NCBI GenBank assembly: GCA_009784565.1
Contig: WRBL01000024.1
Coordinates: 1-34,219, forward strand
Length of the DNA stretch: 34,219 nucleotides
Reading direction: 5' to 3'
Source of the DNA: Streptosporangiales bacterium
GTDB lineage: Bacteria > Actinomycetota > Actinomycetes > Streptosporangiales > Streptosporangiaceae
The position numbers and the translations under genes are program-made. Under the pieces are notes generated by a model, which did no database searches, was not told the DNA's origin, and saw nothing but the letters and a program-made list of their open reading frames with translations. This document shows positions 15,850 through 18,963 of this stretch, piece after piece (within the stretch, counting starts at the first letter, position 1; each line of letters opens with the position of its first letter).

Positions 15850-16236
15850 ATGGCCGAACGCGCACTTCGCGGAACCCGGCTCGGTGCCACGAGCTATGAG
15901 AATGACCGGAACACGGACCTGGCCCCCCGCCAGGACGTCGCTTTCGACTGCCCGAACGGACACAATTTTACAGTGCCCTTCGCCGCTGAGGCGGAACTCC
16001 CCCCGACTTGGGAGTGCCGGGTCTGCGGGGCCGCCGCCACAGCGGTCAGCGGGCAGGCGCCGACAGCGAAGAAGGTGAAGCCGCCGCGCAGCCACTGGGA
16101 CATGCTGATGGAACGGCGCACCGTTGAGGACCTGGAAGCCGTCCTCGCGGAGCGGCTTGAGGTTATCCGGGAGCGGCGGGCCGCCGAGCACCGGGTGATG
16201 GAGGAGAGCCTTCGCCACCAGCGGCGGAGCGCCTAG
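15850..16236 (+). CDS. rbpA: RNA polymerase-binding protein RbpA
   Basis: This 128-residue actinobacteria-specific transcription factor binds RNA polymerase and group 1/2 sigma factors and stabilises the open complex. The order is as in the family. An N-terminal tail 'RALRGTRLGATSYE' is followed by a core with zinc ligands Cys34, His38, Cys56 and Cys59 ('CPNGH' and 'CRVCG'). The basic linker 'KKVKPPRSHWDMLMERR' (74-90) contacts promoter DNA. The sigma-interaction helix pair is 'TVEDLEAVLAERLEVIRERR'. Some RbpA proteins have degenerate zinc ligands, but this one has all four. GGGAGG (15836-15841) sits 8 bp before the ATG. The sigma-R-type promoter upstream suggests induction by thiol stress. 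It converges on the polyprenol mannose synthase gene. Confidence 0.97.
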   Translation: MAERALRGTRLGATSYENDRNTDLAPRQDVAFDCPNGHNFTVPFAAEAELPPTWECRVCGAAATAVSGQAPTAKKVKPPRSHWDMLMERRTVEDLEAVLAERLEVIRERRAAEHRVMEESLRHQRRSA

Positions 16237-16270: not shown

Positions 16271-17032
16271 TCAGCGGCGGACATCGGCTGCGGAGCGGCC
16301 CCGCAGCCGCGCCGTGATGCCCCAGCGGGCAACGCGGAGGAACGCTTCCCCGATGACGGCGTTGCTCATCTTCGACGAGCCGCGCTCGCGCTCGATGAAC
16401 GTGATCGGGACCTCGATGATCGTCAGGCCCGCCTGCAGTACGCGCAGCGTCATGTCGATCTGGAAGCAGTAGCCCAGCGACTCGATGCTGTCGGTGTCGC
16501 TCTTGCGCAACGTCTGCGATTTGTAGGCGCGGAACCCTCCGGTCGCGTCCTTGATCGTGACGCCGAGCATGAGCTGGTTGTAGAGGTTGGCCCCGCGGGA
16601 GAGGAACTCGCGGGACTTCGGCCAGTTGACGACCGTGCCGCCGGGGACGTACCGGGAGCCGATCACGGCGTCGGTGCCGTCGTCCAGGGCGGCGAGCAGG
16701 CGGGGAAGGTCCTCCGGGCGATGCGACCCGTCCGCGTCCATCTCGCAGATGACGCCGTAGTCCCGCTCCAGGGCCCAGGCGAAGCCGGCGATGTAGGCCC
16801 GGCCCAGTCCGGCCTTCTCCGTCCGGTGCAGGACGTGGATCCGGGAGTCGGCCTCGGCCAGCTTGTCCGCGAGGTCGCCAGTGCCGTCCGGGCTGTTGTC
16901 GTCGACCACCAGCAAGTCGGCCTCGGGAGTGGCCTCCCTGATGCGGCCCGCCATGATCTCGAGGTTCTGCCGCTCGTTGTACGTCGGCATGACGATGATC
17001 ACGCGCCCAAGGTCCGCGGCCGGCTGTGTCAT
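16271..17032 (-). CDS. Polyprenol-phosphate mannose synthase (Ppm1/DPM1-like)
   Basis: This 253-residue GT2 glycosyltransferase transfers mannose from GDP-mannose to polyprenyl phosphate, the donor for extracytoplasmic protein O-mannosylation and lipoglycans. Visible motifs are 'VIIVMPTYNERQNLE' (11-25), 'VVDDNSPDGTGDLAD' (42-56), the metal-binding 'CEMDADGSHRPEDL' with DAD, 'VIGSRYVPGG', and the acceptor-side 'GYCFQIDMTLRVLQAG'. It lacks C-terminal membrane segments, so it is the soluble catalytic domain, unlike mycobacterial Ppm1, which is fused to an acyltransferase. The ATG at 17032 follows GAGGTGAG. The frame is open to 17368, but that extension is Arg/Cys-rich and unlike the family. Being next to rbpA matches the arrangement in Streptomyces. 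Confidence 0.93.
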   Translation of the reverse strand: MTQPAADLGRVIIVMPTYNERQNLEIMAGRIREATPEADLLVVDDNSPDGTGDLADKLAEADSRIHVLHRTEKAGLGRAYIAGFAWALERDYGVICEMDADGSHRPEDLPRLLAALDDGTDAVIGSRYVPGGTVVNWPKSREFLSRGANLYNQLMLGVTIKDATGGFRAYKSQTLRKSDTDSIESLGYCFQIDMTLRVLQAGLTIIEVPITFIERERGSSKMSNAVIGEAFLRVARWGITARLRGRSAADVRR

Positions 17033-17430
17033 TGCTCGCGTACTCACCTCTCGTATACGGAAGAGGGCCCGGATGGCGTCTTCGGTCCGGAGACGTACCC
17101 GCCGGCAACGAGTACGACACCGTTGTCTACTGAGCCATCCGGGCCCTTTCCAGGCCCAACCCCCTGACGGCCGGACATACGCGGCCGACCAACACTGGCT
17201 GTCACGCCTGGCGCCCGGAAACTGGCTGCTCCCGCCCCCGCCTCGGCATGACGCTCTTCCTTCAATGTAGTCGCCGATCGTTCCGGCCGGCGAACCCAGT
17301 GCTGGGCTGAACAGAAAATTTACCGTCGATCGCGGGGATGTCAACCGCTGGCCGCATACCCGGGACATACGCAGGGAAGAGAATTAGTTACTCTACGTGA
17401 TCAGATGCGTAGCGTGTAGGGGGGACTTCC
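17033..17430. other. 398-bp divergent intergenic region
   Basis: This gap separates the divergent mannose synthase and transpeptidase genes. It contains the structured element described separately (17064-17157), a small hairpin CCCA-GTGC-TGGG (17295-17306), an AT-richer stretch at about 17309-17322, and an inverted repeat CTACG-N10-CGTAG (17393-17412) around TGATCA just before the transpeptidase. GGGGGG at 17418-17424 serves as its ribosome-binding site. I see no convincing gene. Confidence 0.6.
17064..17157. other. Structured element with 14-bp inverted arms and alternative pairing
   Basis: AGGGCCCGGATGGC (17064-17077) and GCCATCCGGGCCCT (17134-17147) are perfect inverted arms around a 56-base loop. 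Inside, GTCTTCGGTCCGGAGAC (17078-17094) folds as a 7-bp hairpin, with one T-G pair on the plus strand, and CAACG/CGTTG (17106-17125 region) forms another. The right arm's GGGCC (17141-17145) can instead pair with GGCCC (17153-17157), so two exclusive folds exist. Wobble pairs favour a plus-strand RNA; on the minus strand it would be the mannose synthase leader. Function is unknown. It lacks the TpsiC sequence and CCA of a tRNA. Confidence 0.5.
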
Positions 17431-18963
17431 TTGGGTAGCGCATCTCGTACCACCGTCCTTGTGGCCTCCGGTACCGCACTCGCCATCGCCGGGGGTCTTT
17501 CCGCTGTCGCGTTCGCCGGCGGCCAGTCTCATTCCCCGCCGTCGAGGGCGTCCGTCACGCATATGACGGCCGCGCTTCCGCCGCTGCGGGTCGTCTCGTC
17601 CAGCCCGGCCGGCCGCGCCGGACACGTGAACGGCACGCGGCCCGTCACCATCACCTTCAACGAGCCCCTGCCCGCCAGCGTGCCCTTTCCCCGGCTCTCC
17701 CCCTCCGTCCCGGGAACCTGGCGCCGGTCCGGCAACTCCGCGATCTTCACCCCGGGGGCCTCCGGGATCCCCGGTCACACCAGCGTGACAGTCAGCATGC
17801 CCAAGACGGGAACCGTGGTCCGTTCCGCCTATCGGTCGACGTTCTCTACCGCGCGGTACTCCACGCTCCGCCTGCAGCAGTTGCTCGCCCAGATGGGCTA
17901 CCTGCCCCTGTCCTGGTCTCCCCGCCTCAAGGGCTCCGTCGCCCCGGGGAGCGTGGCCGCCCAGGCCGCCGCCGCCTTCTCCCCGCCGGCCGGGTCCTTC
18001 TCCTGGCACGGCGGGTACCCCGGGCAGCTTCACGGCATGTGGAAGGCCGGCTCGGCCAACCTGGTCGATAACGGGGCCATCGCCGCCTTTGAGAACGACC
18101 ACGGCCTGCAGCCCGACGGAGTCGCCGGGCCGAAGGTCTGGAAGGCGCTCCTGGCGGCCGCCGCCAAGGGCAAGCGCAACAGCCACGGGTACAGCTACGC
18201 GGTCGCCAGCGAGAGCACGCCGGAGTCGCTGACCATCTGGCACGACGGAAGGGAGGTGCTCTCCAGCCCGGCCAACACCGGCCAGGCGGTCGCGCCGACC
18301 GCGACCGGGACGTTCTGGGTGTACGAGAAGCTCCCGTACCAGATCATGCAGGGCACCAACCCCGGCGGGTCCCGTTACTCCGACCCGGTCCAGTGGGTGT
18401 CGTACTTCAACGCCGGCGAGGCGGTGCATTACTTCGACCGCGGCTCCTACGGCTGGCCGCAGAGCCTGGGCTGCGTGGAACTCCCCTACAGCGAGGCCGA
18501 GGAGTCCTACCACGACCTGCCCTACGGCTCCCTCGTCTCCGTCGACCCGTAACTCGCGGGGGAGGTCGCCGAAGACCGACTGGTAGTGCTCGTCGGCGAC
18601 CTCTTCCAGCCACTGGGTCCGGCCGAGCGAGATCGCGGTATGCACCATGAGCGAGTCCGGGGCCGCGCCGTGCCAGTGCTCCTCTCCCGGCGGCGCCCAG
18701 ACGGTGTCACCCGGCCGGAGAGGCTTCCGGTCCCCGTCCCGGGTCTCGACGGCGCCGCTGCCGCTGGCGACCAGGATGAGCTGCCCGTCGTCGTGCGAAT
18801 GCCAGTAGGTCCGCCCGCCCGGCTCGAAGACCACGGTGTTGGCGCGGACCTCGCGCTTGCCGTCGTCGGCGGCGACGAGCGGGTCCAGCACCACCCTGCC
18901 GCTGAACGTGCCGCTCCCCTGCCGCGACGGCTGTCCGTCCTGGCGTCCGCGTACGTGCTCCAC
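17401..18963 (-). CDS. Cupin protein whose frame lacks a nearby stop and runs antisense through the transpeptidase gene
   Basis: Only the first 138 residues or so (18550-18963) are recognisable: a single cupin domain closely related to the divergent neighbour at 19107. Metal ligands are His55, His57, Gln61, His96 and His98 ('TYWHSHDDGQ', 'APPGEEHWHG'). The neighbour stops right after 'EERYQKAVEGE'. Here the matching 'DEHYQSVFGDLPREL' runs on without a stop, past the end of the transpeptidase gene and through it to 17401. The roughly 380-residue tail is Gly/Arg/Val-rich, as expected from reading a GC-rich gene backwards, and I consider it not a real domain. A lost stop, a frameshift or a sequencing error at about 18540-18560 would explain it. 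GTG 18963 is preferred over 18969 because AAGGA lies 8 bp upstream. Confidence 0.5.
   Translation of the reverse strand: MEHVRGRQDGQPSRQGSGTFSGRVVLDPLVAADDGKREVRANTVVFEPGGRTYWHSHDDGQLILVASGSGAVETRDGDRKPLRPGDTVWAPPGEEHWHGAAPDSLMVHTAISLGRTQWLEEVADEHYQSVFGDLPRELRVDGDEGAVGQVVVGLLGLAVGEFHAAQALRPAVGAAVEVMHRLAGVEVRHPLDRVGVTGPAGVGALHDLVRELLVHPERPGRGRRDRLAGVGRAGEHLPSVVPDGQRLRRALAGDRVAVPVAVALALGGGRQERLPDLRPGDSVGLQAVVVLKGGDGPVIDQVGRAGLPHAVKLPGVPAVPGEGPGRRGEGGGGLGGHAPRGDGALEAGRPGQGQVAHLGEQLLQAERGVPRGRERRPIGGTDHGSRLGHADCHAGVTGDPGGPRGEDRGVAGPAPGSRDGGGEPGKGHAGGQGLVEGDGDGPRAVHVSGAAGRAGRDDPQRRKRGRHMRDGRPRRRGMRLAAGERDSGKTPGDGECGTGGHKDGGTRCATQGSPPYTLRI
17431..18552 (+). CDS. Secreted L,D-transpeptidase (YkuD) with Ig-like and PG-binding domains
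   Basis: This 373-residue exported enzyme would form 3-3 peptidoglycan crosslinks. The N-terminus (1-30) is a signal peptide or anchor: 'TTVLVASGTALAIAGGLSAVAFAG'-type hydrophobic core without a lipobox Cys. Residues 52-140 form an Ig-like domain ('PVTITFNEPLP', 'TSVTVSMPKTG'). Residues 145-245 contain a peptidoglycan-binding helix bundle ('LRLQQLLAQMGYLPL', 'AIAAFENDHGLQPDGVAGPKVW'). The YkuD domain (about 256-373) has the active-site motif with His333 and 'PQSLGCVELP' with Cys348. TTG is the start, supported by GGGGGG 7 bp upstream. A cupin frame runs antisense through the whole gene. Confidence 0.93.
   Translation: MGSASRTTVLVASGTALAIAGGLSAVAFAGGQSHSPPSRASVTHMTAALPPLRVVSSSPAGRAGHVNGTRPVTITFNEPLPASVPFPRLSPSVPGTWRRSGNSAIFTPGASGIPGHTSVTVSMPKTGTVVRSAYRSTFSTARYSTLRLQQLLAQMGYLPLSWSPRLKGSVAPGSVAAQAAAAFSPPAGSFSWHGGYPGQLHGMWKAGSANLVDNGAIAAFENDHGLQPDGVAGPKVWKALLAAAAKGKRNSHGYSYAVASESTPESLTIWHDGREVLSSPANTGQAVAPTATGTFWVYEKLPYQIMQGTNPGGSRYSDPVQWVSYFNAGEAVHYFDRGSYGWPQSLGCVELPYSEAEESYHDLPYGSLVSVDP

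Follow-up and report, generated by a model that had tools for sequence, protein, structure and literature searches.

The window, a stretch of 34,219 nucleotides from a Streptosporangiales genome, carries two perfect 14-bp inverted arms (17064–17077 and 17134–17147) separated by a 56-nt spacer. The locus raises the question of whether these arms belong to a functional RNA and, if so, on which strand it is read, how it folds and what it is for. The gene beyond the left arm (16271..17032) is taken to be ppm on the basis of the first-pass annotation and its translation rather than a family search; its neighbours are presumably a divergent L,D-transpeptidase-like gene (17431–18552, plus strand) and an RbpA-like gene (15850–16236, plus strand). 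With the ATG of the ppm-like gene 31 nt downstream of the element, the proposed location in a mannose synthase leader is borne out. Among the perfect inverted repeats of the window with a spacer of 3–110 nt, these arms form the longest; nevertheless, dinucleotide shuffling of the window gives an equally long repeat in one case out of 12, and arm length alone is therefore borderline.

Covariation, strand and fold of the element

Loci containing ppm were gathered from 100 relatives, 30 of them supplied as loci, and from 80 named genomes. A constant order recurs in the relatives, consisting of a long stem, CAGUAGAMAAC, a hairpin, GGNCCGAAGG and a stem. A covariance model (R1), built from the window and nine similar leaders, yields 66 matches over the 100 sources at E ≤ 0.05. 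By position, 53 of these lie where the element is expected, 10 lie opposite a true copy on the other strand, and 3 lie at other sites. The E-values are 9e-11 in Nonomuraea and 3e-10 in Actinomadura, and significant values extend to Streptomyces (9e-9 to 7e-5), Cellulomonas (1e-7 and 6e-4) and Arthrobacter (1e-6 upwards). All 66 matches constitute alignment A4, and 39 of them, one from each of 39 of the 100 sources, constitute A5, which is preferred for counts and from which a second model (R2) is built. A further alignment, A8, comprises 100 chosen loci with 97 distinct sequences: 38 found by searching for ppm, 21 out of 30 given by the R2 genome searches, 34 of 40 fetched regions, some picked because the element is not beside ppm, and 7 others. 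The counts leave out the MAFFT alignments A1, A2 and A6.

The check proposed in the first-pass annotation, a search of homologous leaders for compensatory changes, gives a strongly positive result. In A5, two-sided changes affect 23 of 27 pairs, and 93.0% of the cells are paired, compared with 74.8% in shuffled alignments; in A8, the corresponding values are 93.2% and 72.5%, with the structure favoured in such pairing counts by the fitting of the alignments to the model. However, R1, derived from a narrow set, found the distant copies independently of these alignments. Cells with two-sided changes number 470 in A8 against 128 after shuffling, 15 of the 16 modelled P1 pairs change on both sides, and the covariation score is 0.529, with slid partners reaching at most 0.091. 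The number of pairs changed on both sides is the weaker statistic, reached by 14 of 500 shuffles. Within the apical stem of A8, the P2 pairs are 98.3% paired and the inner P3 pairs 98.9%, with the pairs in between at 66–84%. The element is a real, widely conserved RNA.

From its wobble pairs, the plus strand had been thought to fit better, a reading that is reversed here. Folding energy lies below that of shuffled sequences on both strands (z −4.8 each) and thus leaves the strand unsettled. The R1 score is 101.4 bits on the minus strand and 35.0 bits on the plus strand, R1 itself having been built from the minus strand, and R2 scores the window element at 89 bits. Read on the ppm strand, the 97 distinct sequences of this form, designated class A, contain 195 G-U oppositions and 52 A-C oppositions; therefore, the RNA is the ppm (minus) strand. 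The plus-strand reading is rejected on the R1 bit scores and the opposition counts.

The conserved fold is one interrupted hairpin, formed by a long P1, an internal loop and an apical stem (Table 1). The structured RNA with perfect arms described in the first-pass annotation is confirmed by fold and covariation, but its multi-branched shape is not, since the two inner hairpins are present in the plus-strand energy fold only. The GGAA/UUCC extension of P1 derives from the energy fold and, by eye, from an alignment of 18 related leaders, in which conservation drops, again by eye, directly after the UUCC end of P1. The internal loop has the family form CAGUAGAMAAC facing GGNCCGAAGG and is nearly invariant. 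Ten of its columns are identical in 100 of 100 copies, six on the 5′ strand (22, 23, 24, 26, 27 and 28) and four on the 3′ strand (95, 96, 99 and 101). Nine further columns are conserved in 91–99 copies, namely columns 18–21 (91–99) and columns 98, 100 and 102–104 (92–96). The AGUA facing GAA within this loop is reminiscent of a loop-E/sarcin-ricin motif.

Table 1. Coordinates of the element, its parts and the surrounding leader and gene features
Feature	Position	Strand	Basis
Conserved RNA element, class A (P1, internal loop, P2/P3 hairpin)	17063..17148	-	R1, R2, covariation in A5/A8
P1 5′ strand (right arm of the first-pass annotation plus GGAA extension)	17133..17151	-	Covariation
P1 3′ strand plus UUCC end (left arm of the first-pass annotation)	17059..17078	-	Covariation
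Internal loop 5′ strand, nearly invariant, CAGUAGACAAC	17122..17132	-	100 aligned copies
Internal loop 3′ strand, GGACCGAAGAC (family form GGNCCGAAGG)	17078..17090	-	100 aligned copies
P2/P3 apical hairpin	17091..17121	-	Energy fold, A8 pairing
ppm, polyprenol-phosphate mannose synthase-like	16271..17032	-	Translation; ATG 31 nt past the element
Shine-Dalgarno-like AGAGGUG of ppm	17045-17051	-	
Promoter: -35 TTGACA (17339-17344), -10 TAAATT (17317-17322), spacer 16	17317..17344	-	Consensus scan
Transcript 5′ hairpin, AGCCC-AGCACU-GGGUU	17293..17308	-	Leader alignment; pairing read by eye
Conserved box directly ahead of the element, GUCCGGCC...GGGGGUUGGGCC	17153..17176	-	18-sequence leader alignment

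A second partner for one arm of P1, which had suggested two exclusive folds, is present in the window and corresponds, on the RNA, to the GGGCC directly 5′ of P1. The exclusivity is unsupported over the 100 loci. The anti-P1 hairpin reaches p ≤ 0.05 against shuffled upstream sequence in two of 100 loci (median p 0.455; window copy 0.17), and in all 100 loci P1 forms the stronger duplex. The alternative fold is rejected, being no better than shuffled upstream sequence and weaker than P1 throughout; an anti-P1 role for the conserved box ahead of the element is likewise unsupported. A further pairing, CCUCU with AGAGG, is confined to the window, is unconserved by eye in the 18 aligned leaders, and is likewise discarded.

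Promoter and leader

A consensus promoter scan finds one promoter where 0.1 is expected, and its position and sequence are conserved in relatives. As this promoter reads leftwards, the element sits inside a leader of approximately 280 nt, with a transcription start that we infer to lie near 17310. Furthermore, a TTGAC-type promoter is located 60–260 nt upstream of the element in 81 of 100 class A loci, compared with 2 of 100 when the same stretch is reversed and 6 of 72 in a stretch further upstream. In 18 related loci, read by eye, the leader has a constant order of fixed promoter, 5′ hairpin, variable middle, the box GUCCGGCUGGAC..GGGGGUUGGACCC and the element, and similarity ends directly after P1. 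The 5′ hairpin reads CAGUCC-AGCACN-GGRCU in the 18-sequence alignment, and a GUCCACCACAGGAC-like sequence occupies this region in Streptomyces and others. A short reading frame with a Shine-Dalgarno-like stretch (MPRRGREQPVSGRQA; 17202–17249, minus strand, ATG at 17249) is also found in the leader of the window; it is rejected, being unconserved by eye in the 18 aligned leaders.

Downstream of the element, an intrinsic terminator scan of the window region finds none, and the CUCUUCC that follows the element comes without a U-run; a T-rich stretch is located downstream in 7 of 100 loci, most clearly in L115. The Shine-Dalgarno sequence of ppm is free in the minimum-energy fold of element plus start in the window, and masking is not seen in that predicted fold.

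Arthrobacter and some other relatives repeatedly carry an additional inverted repeat of the form (C)TGACCTGC...GCAGGTCA or a similar one. It is situated approximately 160–400 nt upstream of ppm (L059, L100 and L085) or upstream of the element (L181), lies close to the class A promoter in the cases observed, and is perhaps a terminator or an operator.

Gene context and a second form

R2 finds class A in 144 of 296 genomes of the class, nearly always as a single copy; the genome counts are lower bounds, because searches beyond 40 genomes used stricter filters and few candidates were scored per genome. In the 80 named ppm loci with 3-kb flanks, R2 gives 38 matches at E ≤ 0.01, including 16 of 18 Streptomyces, with 0 of 4 in Mycobacterium and 0 of 4 in Corynebacterium. 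Among the 197 phylum genomes scanned, R2 matches 12; of these, 10 belong to the same class and two lie outside it.

Neighbouring genes were named tentatively, by tblastn against our own picks and by sequence features, rather than by a family search. Among the genes searched, the next co-directional gene is ppm in 35 of 100 loci and lnt in 57 (plus L130), often within 100 nt; ppm is over-represented here, because 38 of the 100 loci came from ppm searches. With another 34 chosen by hand, the 100 loci are a biased sample. Two loci (L155 and L180) end too soon for gene context, and lnt or ppm is next and co-directional, among the genes searched, in 93 of the 98 class A loci with a long enough contig. 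In the least biased subset, the 21 R2 top hits, 19 are co-directional (4 ppm, 14 lnt and L130) and two (L113 and L126) are not. In the longer version of L115 (L267), lnt aligns from approximately 1.1 kb, likewise in L269, having first been counted at approximately 0.9 kb.

This context bears on a classical cis-regulator of lnt and ppm, a riboswitch or protein-responsive attenuator whose loop senses a metabolite or protein and alters read-through or translation. The regular succession of element and co-directional lnt or ppm favours such a regulator, as does a loop that barely varies within a variable, covarying surrounding structure, a combination typical of riboswitch aptamers. As in riboswitches, covarying stems surround a nearly invariant core; unlike in riboswitches, the element is not always co-directional upstream (93 of 98 loci in the set above, and 11 convergent loci once the further regions below are added). 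Also against a cis-regulator, the window region contains no terminator, no alternative fold is conserved, and the ppm Shine-Dalgarno sequence is unpaired in the minimum-energy fold. Class A is also retained where it has no gene to lead into, as at L113, where the element scores 79.5 bits despite the convergent gene after it. Altogether, we regard the cis-regulator as a tentative alternative with a substantial minority of the probability.

A convergent gene follows the element in 7 of 9 loci of family f19 and in 4 of 4 loci of family f15. In f19 (L113, L154, L164 and L261–L264), it is an amidohydrolase-like gene whose alignment ends 15–69 nt past the element, and lnt is divergent in the five loci where it aligns, e.g., L113; in the other two of the nine f19 loci, lnt is co-directional (L114) or the contig is cut off (L180). 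In f15 (L126, L181, L265 and L266), a convergent TauE/SafE-like gene is situated between the element and lnt. Nine further regions, one of them the L115 locus, include four f19 loci like L113, two f15 loci like L126, and L268 with lnt next. The full promoter pattern is kept in only 2 of the 11 convergent-gene loci (L113 and L154). A weaker match, TTGAG...TACGKT, is present at −181 to −189 in each of the four f15 loci, whereas L164 and L261–L264 lack any promoter match. Own transcription at the convergent loci is therefore insecure.

The genome of the window contains one further significant R2 match at about 5404–5482 of contig C46 (44 bits; next best 19.6). This copy (L166, L218) is approximately 80 nt long, is convergent with a gene we take to be pdtaR-like, and scores 87.6 bits with R3, the model of a second form, class B, built from an alignment of eight tightly aligned rows (A7). 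Class B is a single hairpin bearing the loop of class A, but with CACCAAAGG in place of CCGAAGG, and its apical loop is CGGGGAAG. An alignment of 36 copies (A9) has a covariation score of 0.728, compared with at most 0.139 for slid partners, and contains 70 G-U and 16 A-C oppositions. R3 matches 73 of the 296 genomes, with a separate class B copy in at least 53 by hand count. A hand tally that leaves out R3 matches sitting on a class A copy gives 111 genomes with class A only, 33 with both, 20 with class B only and 132 with neither.

A TAnnnT box is located 7–17 nt before the first modelled base in 24 of the 36 class B copies, compared with 0 of 36 in the reversed 3′ flank and 5 of 36 in the stretch 100 nt further up. 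TTG at −35 distance accompanies 22 of these 24 boxes, a figure without a control. Some copies (L220, L221, L225, L228, L229 and L236) have no −10- or −35-like boxes at the expected distance. Class B has no constant downstream gene, and its neighbours point in either direction. On one side, they are often genes we take to be polA-like and PaaI-thioesterase-like; on the other, they are presumably pdtaR-like (4 of 36), branched-chain amino-acid transporter-like or others.

The two R2 matches outside the class, L250 (G392) and L251 (G488), fit class B better (R3 55.8 and 48.3 bits, R2 38.4 and 37.8 bits, respectively). They belong to a family outside the class and have a lower GC content (0.56 and 0.52, respectively), and class B there adjoins, by eye, a response-regulator-like gene.

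A proposed function and comparison with known RNAs

These properties are best explained by an undescribed actinomycete RNA with two forms, in which class A is the 3′ domain of an approximately 250-nt RNA with its own promoter and the loop binds one conserved partner, an explanation we hold with confidence about evenly balanced. The RNA would be transcribed leftwards from the sigma-A-type promoter at 17344–17317. The class A hairpin would end this leader-like RNA, usually ahead of lnt and/or ppm, and class B would be an approximately 80-nt RNA with little beyond the same hairpin. What suggests a partner common to both classes is the loop that they share. Such a partner is more likely a protein than a metabolite, given that the RNA persists at loci lacking a switchable gene. 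As ppm begins only 31 nt downstream, the same transcript must also carry ppm in the window. The amount of ppm mRNA is probably determined either by binding to the loop or by the long P1 as a site of cleavage or pausing, and class B would offer the same binding site in trans. The elements before convergent genes, together with the second form, point to a partner able to act in trans. However, the weaker promoters at the convergent loci lower our confidence in this explanation, and slightly in the regulon and the Ms1/6S kinship considered below, and raise that in the cis-regulator, which the strong tie to lnt and ppm keeps alive as well. The earlier suggestion of an attenuator or riboswitch thus stands as a candidate for the lnt and ppm loci, but leaves the convergent-gene copies and the approximately 80-nt relative unexplained.

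A processing or stability element is another reading, in which the P1 of approximately 18–20 bp would be an RNase III site or a roadblock parting the leader from the mRNA, with the loop tuning cleavage. The long, near-perfect P1 ending shortly ahead of the gene in the window agrees with it, but a loop of more than 10 nearly invariant bases and a class B without a constant mRNA are left unexplained, and this reading appears improbable.

The two-form RNA may be extended, more speculatively and at a rather low probability, to an unrecognised RNA regulon. In this extension, the AGUAGAMAAC/CC(G/A)AAGG loop would dock one actinomycete RNA-binding protein, and the free RNA of approximately 80 nt would titrate or deliver it, as CsrB does in the CsrB/CsrA analogy. 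The carriers would be the lnt/ppm leader RNA and the free RNA found beside polA and the genes for branched-chain amino-acid transporters, or beside pdtaR. If true, the regulon would exist in a phylum where such protein partners are hardly known; to our knowledge, actinomycetes, including Streptomyces, have no well understood general sRNA partner. An RNA present in about half of the sampled genomes of the class, nearly always once, with a conserved promoter and a nearly fixed loop, would offer an entry point to a missing RNA-binding factor or ligand, and to how lipoprotein acylation and the supply of mannosyl lipids are controlled. The control of ppm is of practical interest, because PMC5882110 describes S. 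coelicolor strains as hyper-susceptible to multiple antibiotics when they lack polyprenol phosphate mannose synthase or protein mannosyl transferase.

The statement that the structure matches no recognised class is upheld by Rfam 15, which gives no match in the window at the gathering score and, at permissive thresholds, nothing on the elements of three class A and seven class B loci; the permissive matches look like chance, except for two tRNA genes elsewhere in the loci. Literature searches, with supplements and many subscription papers outside their scope, return no recognisable report of the element. The texts of PMC11109978, PMC2864571, PMC8632094, PMC9130861 and PMC11077062, as far as accessible and without their supplements, mention no RNA ahead of lnt or ppm in actinomycetes.

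Like the element, the Ms1 and 6S RNAs, bacterial RNAs that bind RNA polymerase, are structured, widespread and driven by a promoter of their own. A relative of these RNAs would account for the strong promoter and the length of approximately 250 nt, and Ms1 is likewise widespread in Actinobacteria (accessible text of PMC9130861). Nevertheless, no Rfam model matches, and the synteny given for Ms1 in the same text, a HAD hydrolase and an oxidoreductase (sco3558–sco3559 in S. coelicolor), is not encountered here, where the neighbours are lnt, ppm and the amidohydrolase-like gene. The fixed-sequence loop is also unlike 6S RNA, for which conserved length and structure but unconserved sequence are reported in the accessible part of PMC11077062. 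Such kinship is the least probable of the explanations considered and very doubtful.

Several orphan motifs are likewise conserved structured leader RNAs. The msiK motif, an 11-nt bulge in a long hairpin, and the mraW motif belong to this group (msiK in the accessible text of PMC2864571), together with the Streptomyces motifs livJ, dauA and pntA (accessible text of PMC11109978). In these sources, each motif is reported with one kind of gene, whereas the element is found with lnt and ppm, with convergent genes and in a second form. The Lnt RNA motif (RF01711), listed in PMC2864571, is by name near lnt too, but it derives, as far as that listing goes, from Chlorobi and has no Rfam match here. 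The HMP-PP (thiS) riboswitch, a terminator-embedded aptamer described in the accessible part of PMC6478431, similarly has an aptamer-like loop in a long stem; unlike in that riboswitch, P1 in the window has no U-run after it, and a T-rich stretch is found in 7 of 100 relatives.

ANTAR-target RNAs, also structured leaders of actinobacteria, invite comparison as class B adjoins a pdtaR-like gene, pdtaR being the name we assume for the ANTAR regulator, in 4 of 36 loci. According to the accessible text of PMC8164766, they are dual stem-loops with hexaloops carrying A1 and G4. By contrast, the element forms one hairpin and so does class B, whose loop is CGGGGAAG; the ANTAR models applied were those in Rfam. 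A Y RNA, the partner of Ro/TROVE proteins, is rejected; this genome, at 84.5% completeness, yields no TROVE match, and TROVE occurs in 42 of 296 genomes of the class. The identity of the livJ motif with class B is rejected as well, since R3 has no match in four Streptomyces thioesterase loci, a comparison made apart from the published livJ alignment. Among these four loci, at least L253 is situated, by eye, near a LivJ-like gene.
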